Shown: positions 39,902 to 64,000 of the stretch, in pieces
Layout: each line of letters starts with the position of its first letter
Numbering within the stretch: the first letter of the stretch is position 1
Assembly: GCA_009192285.1 (NCBI GenBank)
Contig: CM018605.1
Location: 124,001 to 188,000 of the forward strand
DNA: 64,000 nt
Reading direction: 5' to 3'
Origin: Morchella semilibera
Lineage: Eukaryota; Ascomycota; Pezizomycetes; Pezizales; Morchellaceae
Program-made: the position numbers and the translations under genes
The notes under the pieces: model-generated
The model's input: the letters and a program-made list of their open reading frames with translations, nothing else
The model's database searches: none
Told to the model about the DNA's origin: nothing

Positions 39902-40027
39902 CCGCAAAAGGCCGTTGGATAAGACCGGTCTGTTCTTCCGGGTTCACGGCATAAGCCACAGAAAAATGGTGTGGCTTACGCTGCGAACCTGTAAAAAGAG
40001 ACTGGTCTTGCCCAACGGAATTTTGCG
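39902..40027 (+). mobile_element. Nested long-hairpin element
   Basis: The outer arms ccgcaaaaggccgttggata / complement of tgcccaacggaattttgcgg and the inner arms ggttcacggcataagccaca / complement of tgtggcttacgctgcgaacc together fold the whole 126 nt into one imperfect hairpin with a short loop (gaaaaatgg). Similarity may extend outwards to about 39875 and 40042. It could be a MITE; no target duplication is clear. Confidence 0.6.
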
Positions 40028-40424
40028 GCGCACTGCTGATCATAGAAAGCCCTATTGATTGCATGTGCCTCGAATCACGGGGAATCACTCGCGTTTAGGA
40101 TTCTATGTTATCGAGTGCAGCGGTTGGGTCGGTGGAGGATTCTGGTCTGATATGATGTGTGGATATGCCTAAAACCAGAGGTTCCATAGGAGAGTACTCT
40201 GATGGTATACGGCCTAGACCTGGCCGGTATGTGAACCGGAACCATATGGCGTCCAGCCCGTTCGTTTCAGACTTCTTGAACCTTTTTAGGGCCAGAAGGA
40301 GATATCATTGATCATGATGTCAAAGACCCGATATGTACATGTAGTACCCGTCCAGCTATCAAACCCCGCGAGATCCTGGTGCTGGCCAGGGCTTTAACCA
40401 AGACGATACTAGCTTACAGAGCCA

Positions 40425-42727
40425 CTAAAGCCCATCTCCAACAGAGCCCTGAAAGATAGTAGCCAAGTCCAACAATCTCCCATCATCTCCCGACCCCGCC
40501 AACAACGTGATTGAGAACGGCATCCGAGTCCCACCCAAGTCATAACTTCCCACCGGCAAAGCGATCGCGCAGAGGTCCAGCACGTTTCCGAAATGGGCAA
40601 AAGTCCCCAAGACCGAATTGAGTGAGATTGGGTCCTTTAGAACCTCTTCAATGGTGGGATGGCTGGGTGCCGTCGGTACTACAAGTGCATCGATGGCAGA
40701 TGCGTGGGAGGGGTTGAAAACGGTTTCGTGGACTCTCCGTGTGAGGCTATATAAATAGGGCTCTCATTAGTATTTGTAAGGGGAATTTGAGGAAGGGGAA
40801 CGTACATTTTCATCTTCTTCAAATCCCTAAAAACGTCTTCCGCGCTGTTTTCTCTCGTCAACACACCCCCAAAAACCTGCCTGGTAACCGGGTGCAGGTT
40901 GTCTTTATGTGATTGATACCAATCCTTCCCCGAGGAGGGCATCGCAGTGAGCCTTTCGTTTACTAATGCACCGTCATACAGCAATCTTCCCGCCTCCTCA
41001 AACGGCGCCCAGTTGACCTCTATAAGCTCGCCCCCCAGCCCCTGCAGCCTTCCAACAGATTCGTAGAACAGCTGGCAAAAAACTGCTGTACATTCAGCGA
41101 TAACCTCTAGTGGCGGTATCGCGAACCGGAAGCTGATTCCTGGCGTCCCTAGTGTGCAAAACCTTCTAGATCTCAACGGTGGGGGGATATTCGGAGGTTT
41201 CGAATAAGGGTCGTCCGGGTCATATCCCCGAACATATTTCCATATCTTCCTGGCATCCTGGACTCCACCACGTCTGGTGGTCATGAACGCTATGCAGTCA
41301 AGCGACTCACACGCTTTAGCAACTCCCGATAATGAGACGGTGCCTTTTGTCGGCTTCCATCCGACGATACCGTTGAAGCCCGCGGGTATGCGCCCAGAAC
41401 CCGCAGTATCGGTTGCAATGGCGAAGGATACGAGTTCAGCGCCGACCGAGACTGCAGCGCCGGAAGAAGATCCGCCGGCGATGTAGAGTGGATTGAGAAC
41501 AGATGCGGGAATACCGTATGGAGAGCGGCATCCGGTCATCCCAGTGGCAAGCTGATCCATGTTTGTTTTCCCGATGAAGATTGCCCCAAGAGATACTAGT
41601 TTCGTGTATATCTTTGCAGAAACTGTGGGTATATGGGCTAGCGGGGGACATGCTAGGGTTGTAGCCATCCACGCAACATCGATGTTATCTTTTAGAGAAA
41701 ATGGGACGCCAAAAAGGGGTGGTCGAGATGTGCGGTCGGGGTATTTTTTGAGGAGGTCCTGTGCGAAAGAGATGGCGGCGGCTTGGGGAGTAATTGTAAT
41801 AAATGTAGAGGTGGTTTTCGAGAGATGTGACTCGATCTTTTTATAGACATCCATGACCACTGCAACAGGAGAAACACCAGCTTTATAGGCCTGACGCAGT
41901 GAAAACAAATCTAAAGATCCGTCCCAACCGCTAGCCATACCTCCCTCCTCTTTATCCATGGTAGATGCATAGAATTGTAAGATTAAATCGTCAAGGTTTG
42001 CGAAAGGCACAGGTGATATCGATCCCTGGGATAAATGCTTCGTTTCCAAGGGAGAAGTTCGGAATGGGTCGTTATCATCCACTAAAAAATCATGAACAAT
42101 GCCTGGGGATGTCAGCCCGCTGCTTCTTGATTCAGAGTATAGTTCTTATATATATATATAGACCTTCGTCTGATACGATTTAGACTCACAGCACTTAAAC
42201 CCTCGATCATTTACTTCTCTGGCAGTAAGTGCGGCACAGGCTTGCGTGGTAACACCTCCGATTATGAGATGAGTAATTCCCCATACAAGTAGTTGCTCGT
42301 GCAGTGCCATATTCCACACTGTAGTGTTGCTTGACCTATCAATGACGACTTCCCACGGCTTCGGTGCCCATTCCTCGATCAGGTTGCGGCTGTTTTCCTC
42401 TGTGTTTAGCGCTTCTCCTCTTTTGTTTGCACCCACTTTGGAAATCGTATGTTGCTCGGAACTCTGAACTCCTTCAAAGACTTGACAGTGGGGTTCCCGC
42501 ATGTGAAAAATAGGCATGTTGAGCTCCCGAAAGAATTGTATAAGGGTGGTAAATTTGGAGACGCTGGATTCTATGTCTAGTTGAAGGTGATTGAAGTCAT
42601 CTAGAGATGAAGAGTGATCTCCCAACCTGTGCGCATCGATGATCATGATGGCAGTCGACGTCGACGACATTGGGAATGAGTACGAATTTGCTTTTGCCGG
42701 TATCGTGAATCCTCTAATGTTTGACAT
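40425..42727 (-). CDS. Isochorismatase-like cysteine hydrolase fused to allophanate-hydrolase-type amidase
   Basis: Exons 42727-42190, 42102-40806 and 40746-40425 close in phase to 718 aa. Residues 1 to about 200 are a cysteine-hydrolase domain: catalytic Asp in IMIIDAHRLG, cis-peptide and nucleophile region GGVTTQACAALTAREVNDRG, ending CCIVHDFLVDDNDPF, a strand completed only after splicing the 87-nt intron. Residues from about 240 form an amidase-signature domain with the full triad: Lys in SLKDNID, Ser in GGSSSGAAV and Ser in DTAGSGRIPAGFNGIVGWKP; this block plus ACESLDCIAF is characteristic of allophanate hydrolase (AtzF type). The AtzF C-terminal domain is absent. Inferred role: successive hydrolysis of a biuret- or ureido-type compound to allophanate and then to NH3 and CO2. 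It is cytosolic. The usual Lys of the first domain appears to be Arg (VVIDRSS). Splitting into two genes is unlikely, since the amidase frame has no ATG near the junction. Confidence 0.82.
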
Positions 42728-43683: not shown

Positions 43684-43791
43684 TTCCATGATGTTTCCGA
43701 ACACGGCCAATATTGCATACCATACAAATAGGGGGACCTGGCACTTTTTTCTGTGTATGCAATATTGGCCGTGTTCGGAAACGTCATGGAA
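43684..43791 (+). mobile_element. MITE-like hairpin element
   Basis: The arms TTCCATGATGTTTCCGAACA continuing CGGCCAATATTGCATA, and their complement ending CGTCATGGAA, pair over 36 nt with one or two mismatches, separated by about 36 nt. The core recurs at 1283-1335. It is non-coding. Confidence 0.75.
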
Positions 43792-59124: not shown

Positions 59125-62100
59125 ATGGAGGTTATGGGCGCAGTTTCTGGCGCTCTTGGGATTATTGCGGTAGCTTTAGGGACAGCGAAATCCATATCGA
59201 GTTTAATTTGATAGGAACGATCGTCGATGCTCCTCACAGTCTCCGGAGACTGCACCAGGAGCTTCAGGACCTCGAACAAATACTCACGCAGTTATATCAA
59301 TCCAAAGAAGATGATCAAAGAATAAACACGCGCCAGAGTCCCCTTGTAAGTGCAATCAATAGCTGCGCAGCTGAATTAGAGCGACTCAAAAGCCTCCTCA
59401 AACCCCTTGCCTCAAAACCAGGTGATAGCAATAGGCTGTATCGTCGAGGGATTCAAGGGATTAAGACGCTCTTTAAAGATGACGATATCAGAGAGGCGTC
59501 CGCCGCAGTGCAATCACGGAAGCTATCTATCTGCTTAGTATTGATTACAGATATGTCGGAAAGGTTTGGCGTATCCTCAGTATTTAAATCCACAAGCTGA
59601 TCGATATTGCTATCCAGCCACAAGGTCGGGGGCGGTAATTCTGAGTCTTCAATTGGCCAAATCTCTACGAAAACGTTAGAGGAAATAATCTCCCAGACTA
59701 TTCGAAAGGTTCAAGAGGAGTTTATGCAAGAACCCAGCACGAATATTGGAAATATCTTGATGCTTGACCGTGCAGAGTTTGACAGGCTGTGGACAACAAA
59801 TCTAAAATCGACCCAGACTCTTAGAGGTAGGAGTGAATTTTTCAATTGTGAGGTATATGATTGCTTACACCAGAAGTTTATAGCAATGGTCCATGATCGA
59901 CAGCGTGAAGGTACTTAACATGAGTAATTTTAAATTAGATTTTTATGATTCGAACTAATATGATGAAAGCGTTCATGTTGTCTTTGAATCACCCGGACTA
60001 TTACGGCGACAAGCTCAAACTTAAGAAACCCCGGTCTGGAACTTGCGAATGGATCTTCGCCCACTCTCAGTACTCAGCTTGGTGTACTGATCAAAACACA
60101 TCTGTCTTGTATGCTATGGGCAAGCCTGGGTCCGGAAAGACTGTTCTTTCTAGACATTTATTAGAAATCCTACAGAACTCCAACCCAGAAACTACACAAG
60201 TTCTTTACTATTTCTGCAACAACCGAGATAACCCTAACCTTACCGCGACAAACATTCTAGCAGCTATAGTTCACCAGCTCCTTTCCCAAACACCTTCCCT
60301 GTTCTCCAATATCGCCGAAATGACAGCTCTAAATAAACCTAGGTCGGAGAACACTTCGTGGCCATTGGAATCACTTTGGGAGATGTTTTGTATTATGGTG
60401 GCGGCTTCTCATTCAAAGGTTATCTATTGTATACTTGATGCCCTTGACGAGTGTGAGGCAGAATCAATCTTAGAATTGTCCTTGTTGATCACAACAATGA
60501 CTGAGGAATTCAAAGAATCACAGAATTCACCAAGATTAAAATTCTTCCTGACGAGCCGACCTTTTCAAACTTTAACGGAGGACCTGATGACTGCCCGGGT
60601 TATTCATCTTACCCCGGAAATTGTCAAGACAGACATCGAAAAGATCATTGATGATGGGATGAAGAGATTACAAAGACGCTTACACTTGAAGAAAGACGTC
60701 AAGGAAAGGCTTTGGAATATACTGGTAGAACGTTCGGAAGGCATGTTTCTTTGGGTATTGTTGGCAATTAAGCAATTGGAGGGGGCACGAGCTTTAACTG
60801 CGCAAAGGTTAGAAGCCCTTTTGCAGGGGCTACCTAAAGGCTTAGACGGCATTTACGACCGGATGTTGGAGGCCCTGGAAAACGATCCCGATGATCTGGC
60901 TCTGGGCCGACGGATGCTGAGCTGGGTCGTTTTGGCTCCGAGGCCTTTGACAGTTCCTGAATTTAGGGAAGCAATGGCTGTACAAGAAAGTTCAAATTCG
61001 GTCAGCTCTATCCAAGGGAATTTGTTGTTCAACACTCCCCTTGCTATACGTACTATCTGTGGCTCATTTCTAGAAGTGGTTTCGGGAACTGAGGATCTAA
61101 AGATGGAAGCTAATAGTGACGACGGTGCCCAAGAGAGCGATATTGATGAAGACCCGAGAGCTACAGTCCGCCTTATTCATCAGTCGGCAAAGGATTATTT
61201 TTTTGACCGACTTGGACCCCGCCTTTCTATGTACAGAATAGACGAGCAACAAGGACATAACGAAATTGCAATCACATGTCTTACATATCTTCTTTTTACG
61301 GATTTCATGGAGGGCCCTATCAAAGTTAACCATACCGGTTCTTCAAATCCTTCTACAGCGGGAGTCACAACAGGGGGCCATGATACAGAAGGTCTGCAAG
61401 TACTCCTCAAAAGACGTATTGCACAATATCCATTTCTTGAATATGCAGTACTCCTATGGGCAGATCATGCTAGAGCTGGTTTGGAAACTTTGGAGGGTGA
61501 TTGGGACACATTAATAAACTCATCTATCATAAAGCTCATATGCCGGTTTTTAAGACAGCCAACATATCTCGAGTTCTGGCATCAATTATACTTCTTTCGC
61601 TCACCCCCCATACAGCGAGGGCGCGATCCCACAGATTACACCAAAATAATTACCCCACTGCACGCTGCTTGCTTCTTGCGGCTACCTCATATCGCACAGT
61701 ACCTTCTGCAGAATTGGGATGTCGACATAAACAAAATTTCTAGCTCAGGCGATAACGCACTTTTATATTCCATATATACTCTGAGTGATCGAGCGAGTCT
61801 GCGGACCCTGAAACTTCTTTTGGATTATATTCCAACGATCAATATACGAGAGGAGTGTAATAATTCTGCACTTGTCGATGCCGTTTTCACTGGTTCAGTG
61901 GAGGGGGTAGAGCTGCTCCTCGATGCAGGGGCAGATATAAACGCAAAAGACAAAGAAGGGCGAACCGCATTATATGCTGCTGCAATGCTGGGACATGGGA
62001 GGATTTTGGAGCTACTTCTCGATAGGGGTGCACACGTCGAAGAGAAAGGCACAGATGGCTTGACTTCATTGTGTATAGCATCACACAAAGGCCACACCCA

Positions 62101-64000
62101 GGTAGTCGGCTTACTTCTTGATCGGGGGGCAGACATCGAAAGCAAAAACCGGGAAGGTCGGACTTCACTGAATATTGCAGCGCAGAAAGGCCACGCCCAG
62201 GTGATCGGTTTACTTCTCGATCGGGGAGTAGACATCGAAACCAAAAGCACCCCTGGCATGACTCCACTATGTATAGCAGCTTGGAATAGCCACCTCGAGG
62301 CAATCAGTTTACTTCTCAATCGAGGAGCAGACATCGATAACGTAACCAACTATGGCTCGACTTCACTGCTTTTAGCGGCAGAAAACGGCCACGTCCAGGC
62401 AGTCAGTTTGTTTCTCGATCGGGGAGCAGGTATTGAAGTAGAAGACCAGTATGGTTCGACTCCACTATCTATAGCAGCACAGAAAGGCTACACCCAGGTG
62501 ATCAGTTTACTTCTCGATAGGGGAGTAGACATCGAAACCAAAAACACCACTGGCATGACTCCACTATGTATAGCAGCATTGAATGGTCACCTCGAGGTAA
62601 TCAGTTTACTTCTCAATCGAGGAGCAAACATCGATAACCAACTATGGCTCGACTTCACTGTTTTTAGCGGCACAAAACGGCCATGCCCAGGCAGTCAGTT
62701 TACTTCTCGATAGGGGAGCAGATATCGAAAGCAAATGCGGTAATGACATGACTTCCCTGCATATAGCAGCATGGCACGGTAAAACTGAGGTAGTCAGTTT
62801 ACTTCTCGATAGGGGAGCAGATATCGAAAGCAAAGACCAGCTTGGCCGGCATGCCCTGTACACAGCATCATACAACGGTCACCACAAGGTAGTCAGTTTA
62901 CTTCTCGATAGGGGTGCAGACATCAATAGCAAATGCCTGGATGGTCAGACTTCATTGCATATAGCAGCACAGAACGACCGCGCCCAGGTATTCAATTTAC
63001 TTCTAGATAGGGGAGCAAGACTCAGGGATCACGATAACGTAAATATATTATTATTAGCCGCACAGGCTGGTCACGCCCAAAAAGTTAGTTTACTTCTTGA
63101 AATGGGAGGAGACGTCAATGCGGCAACCCTACGAGGCTGTACTGTACTCCATGTAGCTGCCTCCTTTGGACATTTGGAAATTGTCGAAAACCTATTAAAG
63201 CATGGAGCGACCCCCGACTTCAGAGGTGCACAAGGATGGACACCAATCATCTGTGCCCAGAAAAACCGGCAATTAGAAATTGTCGAACGATTAGCTCAAT
63301 TCAAACCTTCGTCTGCCAACAACGATCAAACCGTAGCCCGATCTCCGACATGTTGGAGCTCGGAAGACAAATCTTTACATATTCAGCTTTCAGAGAATGG
63401 TCTTCGCGCAAAAGTTCCACGTAGGACCCTTCTTGATCTAGAATTGATAACTATTGTTTTTTTAACCTTTAAGCAGAGGTGAAAGGGTTAGGGCACTCGA
63501 CCCTAAGAAGTAACTTCTGTATCTCAGCGGAAAAGGATAGCTTCTATTACGAGATTGAAATTATCGAAGGAGGGGACGCAGAGTAAATTTCAGGTTGACT
63601 TTTCCATAGGTAATTCATTGGTCTAAAACACTGGAACCCCGTTCAGTGAAATAGGTATCGGTGTTTCGAGAGACTACCTAAGGCTACAAGCCATGCCAGG
63701 CTGGGACAGAGGGAGCTATGGCTATCATGGGGATGATGGCTGTTTATACAAGGGCACTGGACCTGGTGTGCCATACGCAGACACATTTTCAATTGGTGAT
63801 GTAGTTGGATGCGGTATTAATTATGATAAGTCAACTATCTTCTTTACCAAAAATGGCAAGTTCCTAGGTACGTTAACTAGTGAAATCGTGAAGCTCCTAT
63901 CCGGCCCCATGAGCAAAACACAGAGTGTTAACATAATGAAAATTAATTAGGTATTGCCACAGAGATTGTCATAGGTCAACTATGTCCGATGATTGGGTTC
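59125..64000 (+). CDS. NLR: PF17111-like N-terminus, NACHT, ankyrin repeats, SPRY (partial; two frameshifts)
   Basis: Inferred exons: 59125-59570, 59625-59910, 59970-63420, 63474-63582, 63647-63867 and 63951 past the edge. The N-terminus (MEVMGAVSGALGIIAVALG, then TIVDAPHSLRRLHQEL) is the PF17111-type domain of fungal STAND proteins. NACHT: Walker A GKPGSGKT (about residue 294) and Walker B ILDALDEC, followed by SRPFQTL and a winged-helix region. From about residue 800 run roughly 15 ankyrin repeats (VISLLLDRGVDIETK units). Two short introns then lead into a SPRY domain (FYYEIEIIEGG, IGIGVSRDY, MPGWDRGSYGYHGDDG, SIFFTKNGKFLG) and its next exon (IVIGQLCPMIGF) reaches the edge. Fungal NLRs of this kind act in non-self recognition and cell death. 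Two lesions are seen: a 1-nt frame change at about 59207 and a 4-nt deletion at about 62637. It is therefore a pseudogene, an inactive allele, or mis-sequenced. Confidence 0.85.
62216..62640 (+). repeat. 297-bp duplication of three ankyrin repeats
   Basis: The block beginning ctcgatcggggagtagacat at about 62216 recurs 297 bp later (about 62513) with only a few substitutions, that is a 99-codon, three-ankyrin unit. Adjacent 99-bp units are also closely similar. Confidence 0.85.

Follow-up and report, generated by a model that had tools for sequence, protein, structure and literature searches.

Gene structure and genomic surroundings

The window is the whole stretch of DNA analysed here, 64,000 nucleotides of the Morchella semilibera genome (C3:124001-188000; the assembly has 56.8 Mb in 23 contigs). 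The fusion gene lies on the minus strand at 42727-40425 and has three exons, which give a single predicted protein of 718 aa. It starts with ATG at 42727 and ends with TAG at 40427-40425, and the length of the joined exons is divisible by 3. The features of the gene are as follows:

Exon 1, 42190..42727, minus strand: residues 1-179 and base 1 of codon 180; bulk of the isochorismatase-like (IHL) cysteine-hydrolase domain
Codons in exon 1, minus strand: D31 at 42637-42635; E78 at 42496-42494; R131 (position of the catalytic Lys) at 42337-42335
Further codons in exon 1, minus strand: N134 at 42328-42326; C164 at 42238-42236
Intron 1 (predicted), 42103..42189, minus strand: 87 nt, phase 1, GTGAGT...CTGAC...CAG
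Exon 2, 40806..42102, minus strand: end of the IHL domain (residues about 180-230), linker, and bulk of the AtzF-type amidase
Codons in exon 2, minus strand: K317 at 41692-41690; S415 (nucleophile) at 41398-41396; also S392 (cis-Ser), R417, Y555, and R563
Intron 2 (predicted), 40747..40805, minus strand: 59 nt, GTACGT...ACTAAT...TAG
Exon 3, 40425..40746, minus strand: C-terminal part of the amidase and stop codon TAG, with no AH_C domain after it

The sequence-only reading had proposed that an 87-nt intron at 42189-42103 joins the two domains in phase and without a stop. The place, phase, and signals of this intron were found to be right. It was compared with other models, 160 in total (159 GT/GC-AG pairs and the unspliced sequence), using an HMM built from 139 bacterial TrtA/BiuH domain hits. 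Intron 1 ranked first with 92.1 bits, followed at a small margin of 3.2 bits by a model with a GC donor 3 nt upstream (88.9 bits), and 38 of the 160 models kept the test stretch open. The unspliced sequence scored 87.5 bits, and the gain of only 4.6 bits over it is therefore support for the intron and not proof. The range 40425..42727 held as a single predicted gene; the second intron in it (40805-40747) had been missed, which leaves the original claim unchanged. This intron was the top of 110 models scored against an HMM of 26 AtzF sequences (429.0 bits), with the next model at 427.0 and the unspliced sequence at 337.6.

Codon statistics came from a small training set (3,375 codons of unverified frames); in the predicted frame, they gave scores of 0.08 for exon 1 and 0.12 for the amidase part. 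The 46 codons past the intron 1 junction had a weak score of 0.01, and the other five frames were negative. The 628-base piece of exon 1 plus intron 1 had a single location in the genome.

The few bits that intron 1 adds, and an internal ATG (MDKEEGG) that could begin the amidase alone, would be in line with a splicing artefact or with two genes side by side. However, the top-scoring intron is in phase with good signals, and exon 2 begins with an open stretch whose coding score is above zero in no frame but the predicted one. Based on the model scores for both introns and the codon statistics, separate genes were rejected as very improbable. In the spliced protein, Pfam detected Isochorismatase at residues 51-184 (E 9.5e-15) and Amidase at residues 261-704 (E 1.2e-67), as expected from the proposal that an isochorismatase-like hydrolase and an AtzF-type amidase share one predicted chain. 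By its predicted gene structure and domain identities, the fusion gene encodes one two-domain protein.

Several other elements were observed in the window. An inverted repeat with 37-nt arms (43684-43791; 97% complementary, 34 nt apart) lies approximately 1 kb upstream of the fusion gene, and we take it to be foldback or MITE-like. Another one (39902-40028; 59-nt arms, 80% complementary, 9 nt between them) lies approximately 400 bases downstream. A fungal transcription-factor domain is located near the fusion gene and, like the introns, is in keeping with a filamentous fungus. Positions 59939-62713 encode an NPHP3_N/NACHT domain followed by ankyrin repeats, which is an NLR-like fungal protein.

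N-terminal isochorismatase-like domain

Residues 1 to about 230 form an IHL domain of the TrtA/BiuH type. The best PDB match was TrtA 6xix (E 2.8e-18), followed by BiuH 6xjm (E 6e-12) and BiuH 6azo (E 4.8e-9). Among 11 plasmid-borne relatives, the type of which was assigned from motifs, the domain was 27–30% identical to TrtA-type and 22–28% identical to BiuH-type rows; one BiuH-type row reached 28%, equal to most TrtA-type rows. The score against the BiuH model NCBIfam NF050097 was 66.2 bits, below the cut-off of 370, and the TrtA-like protein of locus L027 was likewise below this cut-off (238.5 bits).

The AlphaFold2 model of exon 1 alone, made with 38 bacterial relatives, had a mean pLDDT of 75. 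Residues 81-111 were below 50, and the lid (31-50) and residues 131-140 were also poorly predicted. Foldseek gave TrtA 6xix as the best match (probability 1.00, query TM-score 0.63, rmsd 6.6), and this fold match is not independent because the alignment was built from relatives found with the TrtA/BiuH family.

In a quick tree with 73 of the 139 bacterial rows, the domain was placed on the TrtA side with an end branch of 10 (saturated), a placement flagged as unsure by the tool. The end branch of the amidase in its own tree was 1.88; with the reservation that these are two different trees, the N-terminal domain has probably changed faster than the amidase. Overall, the comparisons suggest that the domain is somewhat closer to TrtA than to BiuH. 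BiuH makes allophanate, which AtzF consumes, and the product of TrtA is carboxybiuret, not allophanate (PMC7948467).

In TrtA, the catalytic triad is D24, K129, and C162, and the residues that bind triuret are D24, E72, K132, and, from the neighbouring subunit, Q202 (PMC7948467). In the alignment with the 139 bacterial rows, the fungal domain keeps D31, E78, the oxyanion-hole (cis-peptide) Thr T160, and the nucleophile C164. The catalytic Lys (TrtA K129/BiuH K142), present in 139/139 rows, is replaced by R131, and the substrate Lys (K132/K145), present in 137/139, is replaced by N134. The lid Phe (F29/F41; 138/139 rows) has no counterpart, and a Gln sits one alignment position off from the partner-subunit Gln (Q202/Q215). 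Since the rows compared are all bacterial, these changes could be peculiar to this one fungus.

The effect of such changes can be judged from published BiuH variants (PMC5806882). Lys145 variants with Ala, Arg, or His were effectively inactive; Asn, as in the fungal domain, did not belong to this set. Phe41 variants had kcat/KM values approximately 70- to 700-fold lower, a range computed from its Table 2. When Lys142 was replaced by Ala, His, or Arg, only Arg was tolerated; the kcat/KM of Lys142Arg was 504 vs. 149742 M−1 s−1, and its activity was approximately 25-fold down. Since the fungal domain is without residues needed by a biuret hydrolase, it probably does something else, and biuret hydrolase activity is unlikely. 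As BiuH Lys142Arg retains some activity, a residual or changed activity of the domain is possible. The sequence-only reading had cast the first domain as a biuret hydrolase that supplies allophanate. This is disfavoured by the two replaced lysines (Lys to Arg, Lys to Asn), the lost Phe, TrtA as the closest characterised relative, and a separate BiuH-like gene described below.

The domain could be an active Asp-Arg-Cys cysteine hydrolase for another ureido or guanidino compound, such as a guanylurea-like one, and its product would reach the amidase either as such or after a spontaneous reaction. Chemistry with an Asp-Arg-Cys triad is conceivable in principle, and we consider this enzyme a tentative possibility. 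The retention of Asp, Cys, Glu78, and the oxyanion Thr fits such an enzyme, as does the fact that Arg is the one replacement of Lys142 that BiuH tolerated (PMC5806882), and a pocket without the substrate-binding Lys could favour a substrate with positive charge. A guanylurea hydrolase of the IHL type, GuuH, acts in a pathway ending at AtzF (PMC9800807). However, Arg at the catalytic-Lys position occurred in 0/139 bacterial rows, and the poorly predicted stretches of the model include the lid and both 81-111 and 131-140.

C-terminal amidase

Residues from about 240 to 718 form an AtzF-type amidase in which the catalytic residues are present and the AtzF C-terminal domain is absent. Among its PDB matches, AtzF 4cp8 (E 2.4e-88) and 4gyr came first, and the K. 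lactis enzyme 4iss (E 6.5e-64) came after them. The amidase was 38–41% identical to the 25 plasmid matches listed, over 94–99% of its length. K317, S392, S415, and R417 were identical in 29/29 AtzF rows, which gives a complete Ser-cisSer-Lys site. Y555 and R563 were identical in 26 of the 29, with gaps in the other three, and we assume that this Tyr and Arg of the AtzF motif have roles in allophanate binding. In total, 12 of 13 checked AtzF motif positions were kept, all catalytic ones included; the Trp of the LLYxGPWVAER motif is Leu559 in the fusion, as in one other row. The nucleophile of AtzF itself is Ser189 (PMC6219798).

In a quick tree, the amidase fell within the AtzF rows, and together they split from AtzE-like amidases with an SH-aLRT of 99 and a long-branch warning at the join. 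An AtzE-type amidase was rejected because of this grouping. The amidase scored below the curated cut-offs (TIGR02713, 392.8 vs. 511; NF006043, 420.4 vs. 487), and the C-terminal part of these models was unmatched. Judged from these similarities, the amidase most likely hydrolyses allophanate.

AH_C had no match in the window or in the whole genome of the fungus, and 2/14 controls matched. Among the AtzFs of the fetched bacterial loci, five (four from actinobacteria and one from SAR324) ended in tails of <60 aa, and none of the five was preceded by an IHL domain in its frame; a sixth AtzF was cut by a contig edge.

The N-terminal domain may instead be a pseudoenzyme for amidase assembly or stability, which would replace the missing AtzF C-terminal domain. 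We find this plausible, at somewhat less than even odds. The loss of three key residues, the saturated end branch of the domain against the shorter one of the amidase, and the missing AH_C all point to it, and the bacterial relatives are oligomers (BiuH a tetramer, TrtA a dimer; PMC5806882, PMC7948467). However, the nucleophile Cys and the general base Asp are kept in the domain, and the five short-tailed bacterial AtzFs indicate that a replacement for AH_C is not a necessity for the amidase.

Bacterial relatives of the two domains

The genome_contigs collection was scanned with two motif patterns, and the best 80 of 380 confirmed relatives were analysed, a selection that favours proteins with those motifs. 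Frames at these loci ran from stop to stop (>=100 aa), and distances were measured between frames, not start codons. Both domains in one frame were found in 0/80 bacterial TrtA/BiuH loci (best 80 of 380). An AtzF (>=200 bits) was present in the fetched flanks of 25/80 of these loci, a lower bound as some contigs were short. In 19 of the 25, this AtzF shared its strand with the nearest TrtA/BiuH gene, and in 14 the frames were within 430 bases of each other. In 20 genomes hand-picked from the best 80 of 380 loci, the AtzF cut-off was passed by 18, vs. 1/14 controls; since general amidases gave a match of some kind in all 20 genomes and in 13/14 controls, the only informative figure is the count above the cut-off.

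TrtA operons that contain BiuH and AtzF have also been published (PMC7948467). Together with the AtzF genes near bacterial TrtA/BiuH genes, these operons indicate that the two fused domains are probably functional partners and did not come together by chance. The pairing was thus meaningful, as had been supposed: genes for cysteine-hydrolase-type and AtzF-type proteins lie near each other in 25 of the best 80 loci. The searches found no close relatives of the N-terminal domain alone in genome_contigs and none of the whole protein in viral_contigs.

The HMM search also showed ORFs like the AtzF C-terminal domain near TrtA/BiuH-like genes at some cyanobacterial, Nitrospira, and other loci. Examples of these AH_C-like ORFs are L037:10777-11190, L073:10549-11082, L043:10683-11072, and L035:6834-7271. 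The small gene beside trtA on plasmids was considered as a free AH_C. This was wrong in the three cases checked, which were cupin (L026, L030) and AtzH-like (L028) genes. The AH_C-like, cupin, and AtzH-like neighbours may act on carboxylated intermediates.

Pathway genes elsewhere in the genome

The fusion was the best AtzF match in its own genome (302 and 78 bits for two exons), and the next gene scored 131. The whole fusion protein had 10 matches in the genome; three were its own exons, and the rest covered one domain each at 27–40% identity. No close paralogue of the fusion was found in this genome.

A BiuH/TrtA-like gene was found at C19:5252324-5252833 (L113, L118), with both lysines and the Cys and 253 bits to the family HMM. 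It was 56% identical to BiuH 6azo over 165 columns and, without its first exon, scored 248.6 bits against the BiuH model (cut-off 370). For the tree and alignment, its exons were joined at a guessed junction and the Phe position was left out; the Q202/Q215 position is Glu in this alignment. By its sequence, the C19 gene is possibly a fungal biuret hydrolase. A gene for an amino-acid-permease-type transporter adjoins it.

Urease is present in the genome. Matches to urea carboxylase were confined to the biotin-carboxylase and biotin-carrier parts of the model (positions 13-446 and 1125-1200), which other carboxylases have as well. All 14 controls matched these shared regions too, one of them over the cut-off. 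PF02682 had no match in the genome and matched in 6/14 controls. The search was made by exon, in which a fragmented urea carboxylase could be missed. As no urea carboxylase was found, a biuret-type substrate would be a likelier source of allophanate than urea. The search of this genome for the cyanuric acid hydrolase family is uninformative, as none of the controls matched, and AtzH-like proteins had no match in the genome and matched in 1/14 controls.

An isochorismatase gene with a 552-aa frame on C9/C10 was not among the amidase matches of the genome. An amidase-like stretch at C9:1260988-1261760 and C10:1260838-1261610 had several stops in both copies and may be a gene remnant or contain unrecognised introns. 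The matches on C9 (2,071,371 bases) and C10 (2,071,177 bases) were the same and nearly coincided in position, and the two are perhaps duplicated or alternative-haplotype contigs.

A bifunctional enzyme that degrades biuret to ammonia and channels allophanate between its domains, as the sequence-only reading had imagined, is improbable and the least supported of the single-gene options. In its favour, the product of BiuH is the substrate of AtzF (PMC7948467), the two are neighbouring genes in bacteria, and fused urea amidolyase is more efficient than its separate parts (PMC5770610). However, the positions of K129, K132, and F29 are changed in the N-terminal domain, which is therefore unlikely to be a biuret hydrolase; this domain is somewhat nearer to TrtA and far below the cut-off of the BiuH model (66 vs. 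370). Both lysines are also present in the BiuH-like gene that the genome has elsewhere, and the authors of the yeast urea amidolyase study themselves argued against channelling (PMC5770610).

Proposed function of the fusion protein

Our preferred explanation, with a probability of about 0.6, is that the gene encodes a fungal two-domain protein made of an allophanate hydrolase without its own C-terminal domain and a TrtA/BiuH-type IHL domain of altered or lost activity. The amidase half would hydrolyse allophanate as the last step of a ureide-nitrogen route, and the allophanate would most plausibly be derived from biuret by the separate BiuH-like enzyme of C19. With Asp, Cys, and the oxyanion-hole Thr kept and Arg in place of Lys, the IHL domain would be either a hydrolase with a changed substrate or a largely inactive assembly domain, and these are two branches of the preferred explanation. 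The lost Lys residues provide a clear test of whether the IHL domain works with Arg or has turned into a scaffold. We also considered a one-chain eukaryotic two-step ureide hydrolase, in which an Asp-Arg-Cys first site with a remodelled pocket would act on a substrate new to the IHL family and pass the product to the attached allophanate hydrolase. We consider this unlikely.

With a urease and no urea carboxylase found in the genome, allophanate here should derive from something other than urea carboxylation. The fusion would point to the use of biuret-, triuret-, or guanylurea-type nitrogen in fungi. On fungi, the TrtA study states only that some carry genes of this kind, and it names mycorrhizal ones (PMC7948467).

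Comparison with known systems

The N-terminal domain of the fusion shares with TrtA/BiuH the fold, the Asp, the Cys, the equivalent of Glu72, and the cis-peptide Thr, and differs from them by Arg for the catalytic Lys, Asn for the substrate Lys, the absence of the lid Phe, and the attached amidase. The amidase resembles AtzF over 94–99% of its length in the plasmid matches listed, whereas it has no AH_C and carries an IHL domain in front.

Dur1,2, the fungal urea amidolyase, is also a fusion with an allophanate-hydrolase-type amidase, but its amidase is followed by a urea carboxylase, which is absent here. A Dur1,2-type enzyme was rejected because the chain ends after the amidase, AtzF is closer than 4iss, and the genome has no urea-carboxylase-specific match. 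Fungal amidases of the allophanate-hydrolase kind other than Dur1,2 have been treated as stand-alone proteins (PMC3073912); these are the same kind of amidase, and the accessible text of that report mentions no IHL domain in them. In the GuuH pathway, an IHL enzyme and AtzF likewise belong to one nitrogen-release route, but this route is bacterial, its genes are separate, and guanidine carboxylase and carboxyguanidine deiminase act between the two (PMC9800807).

In the accessible parts of the open-access literature, no description of an isochorismatase-amidase or biuret hydrolase-allophanate hydrolase fusion was found. The best reading is that an IHL domain and an AtzF-type amidase in one chain represent a new fungal domain architecture, and similar fungal proteins may exist unannotated in databases. 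Fusions hint at which enzymes cooperate, and this fungus appears to unite in one chain two enzymes that bacteria encode separately, often side by side.
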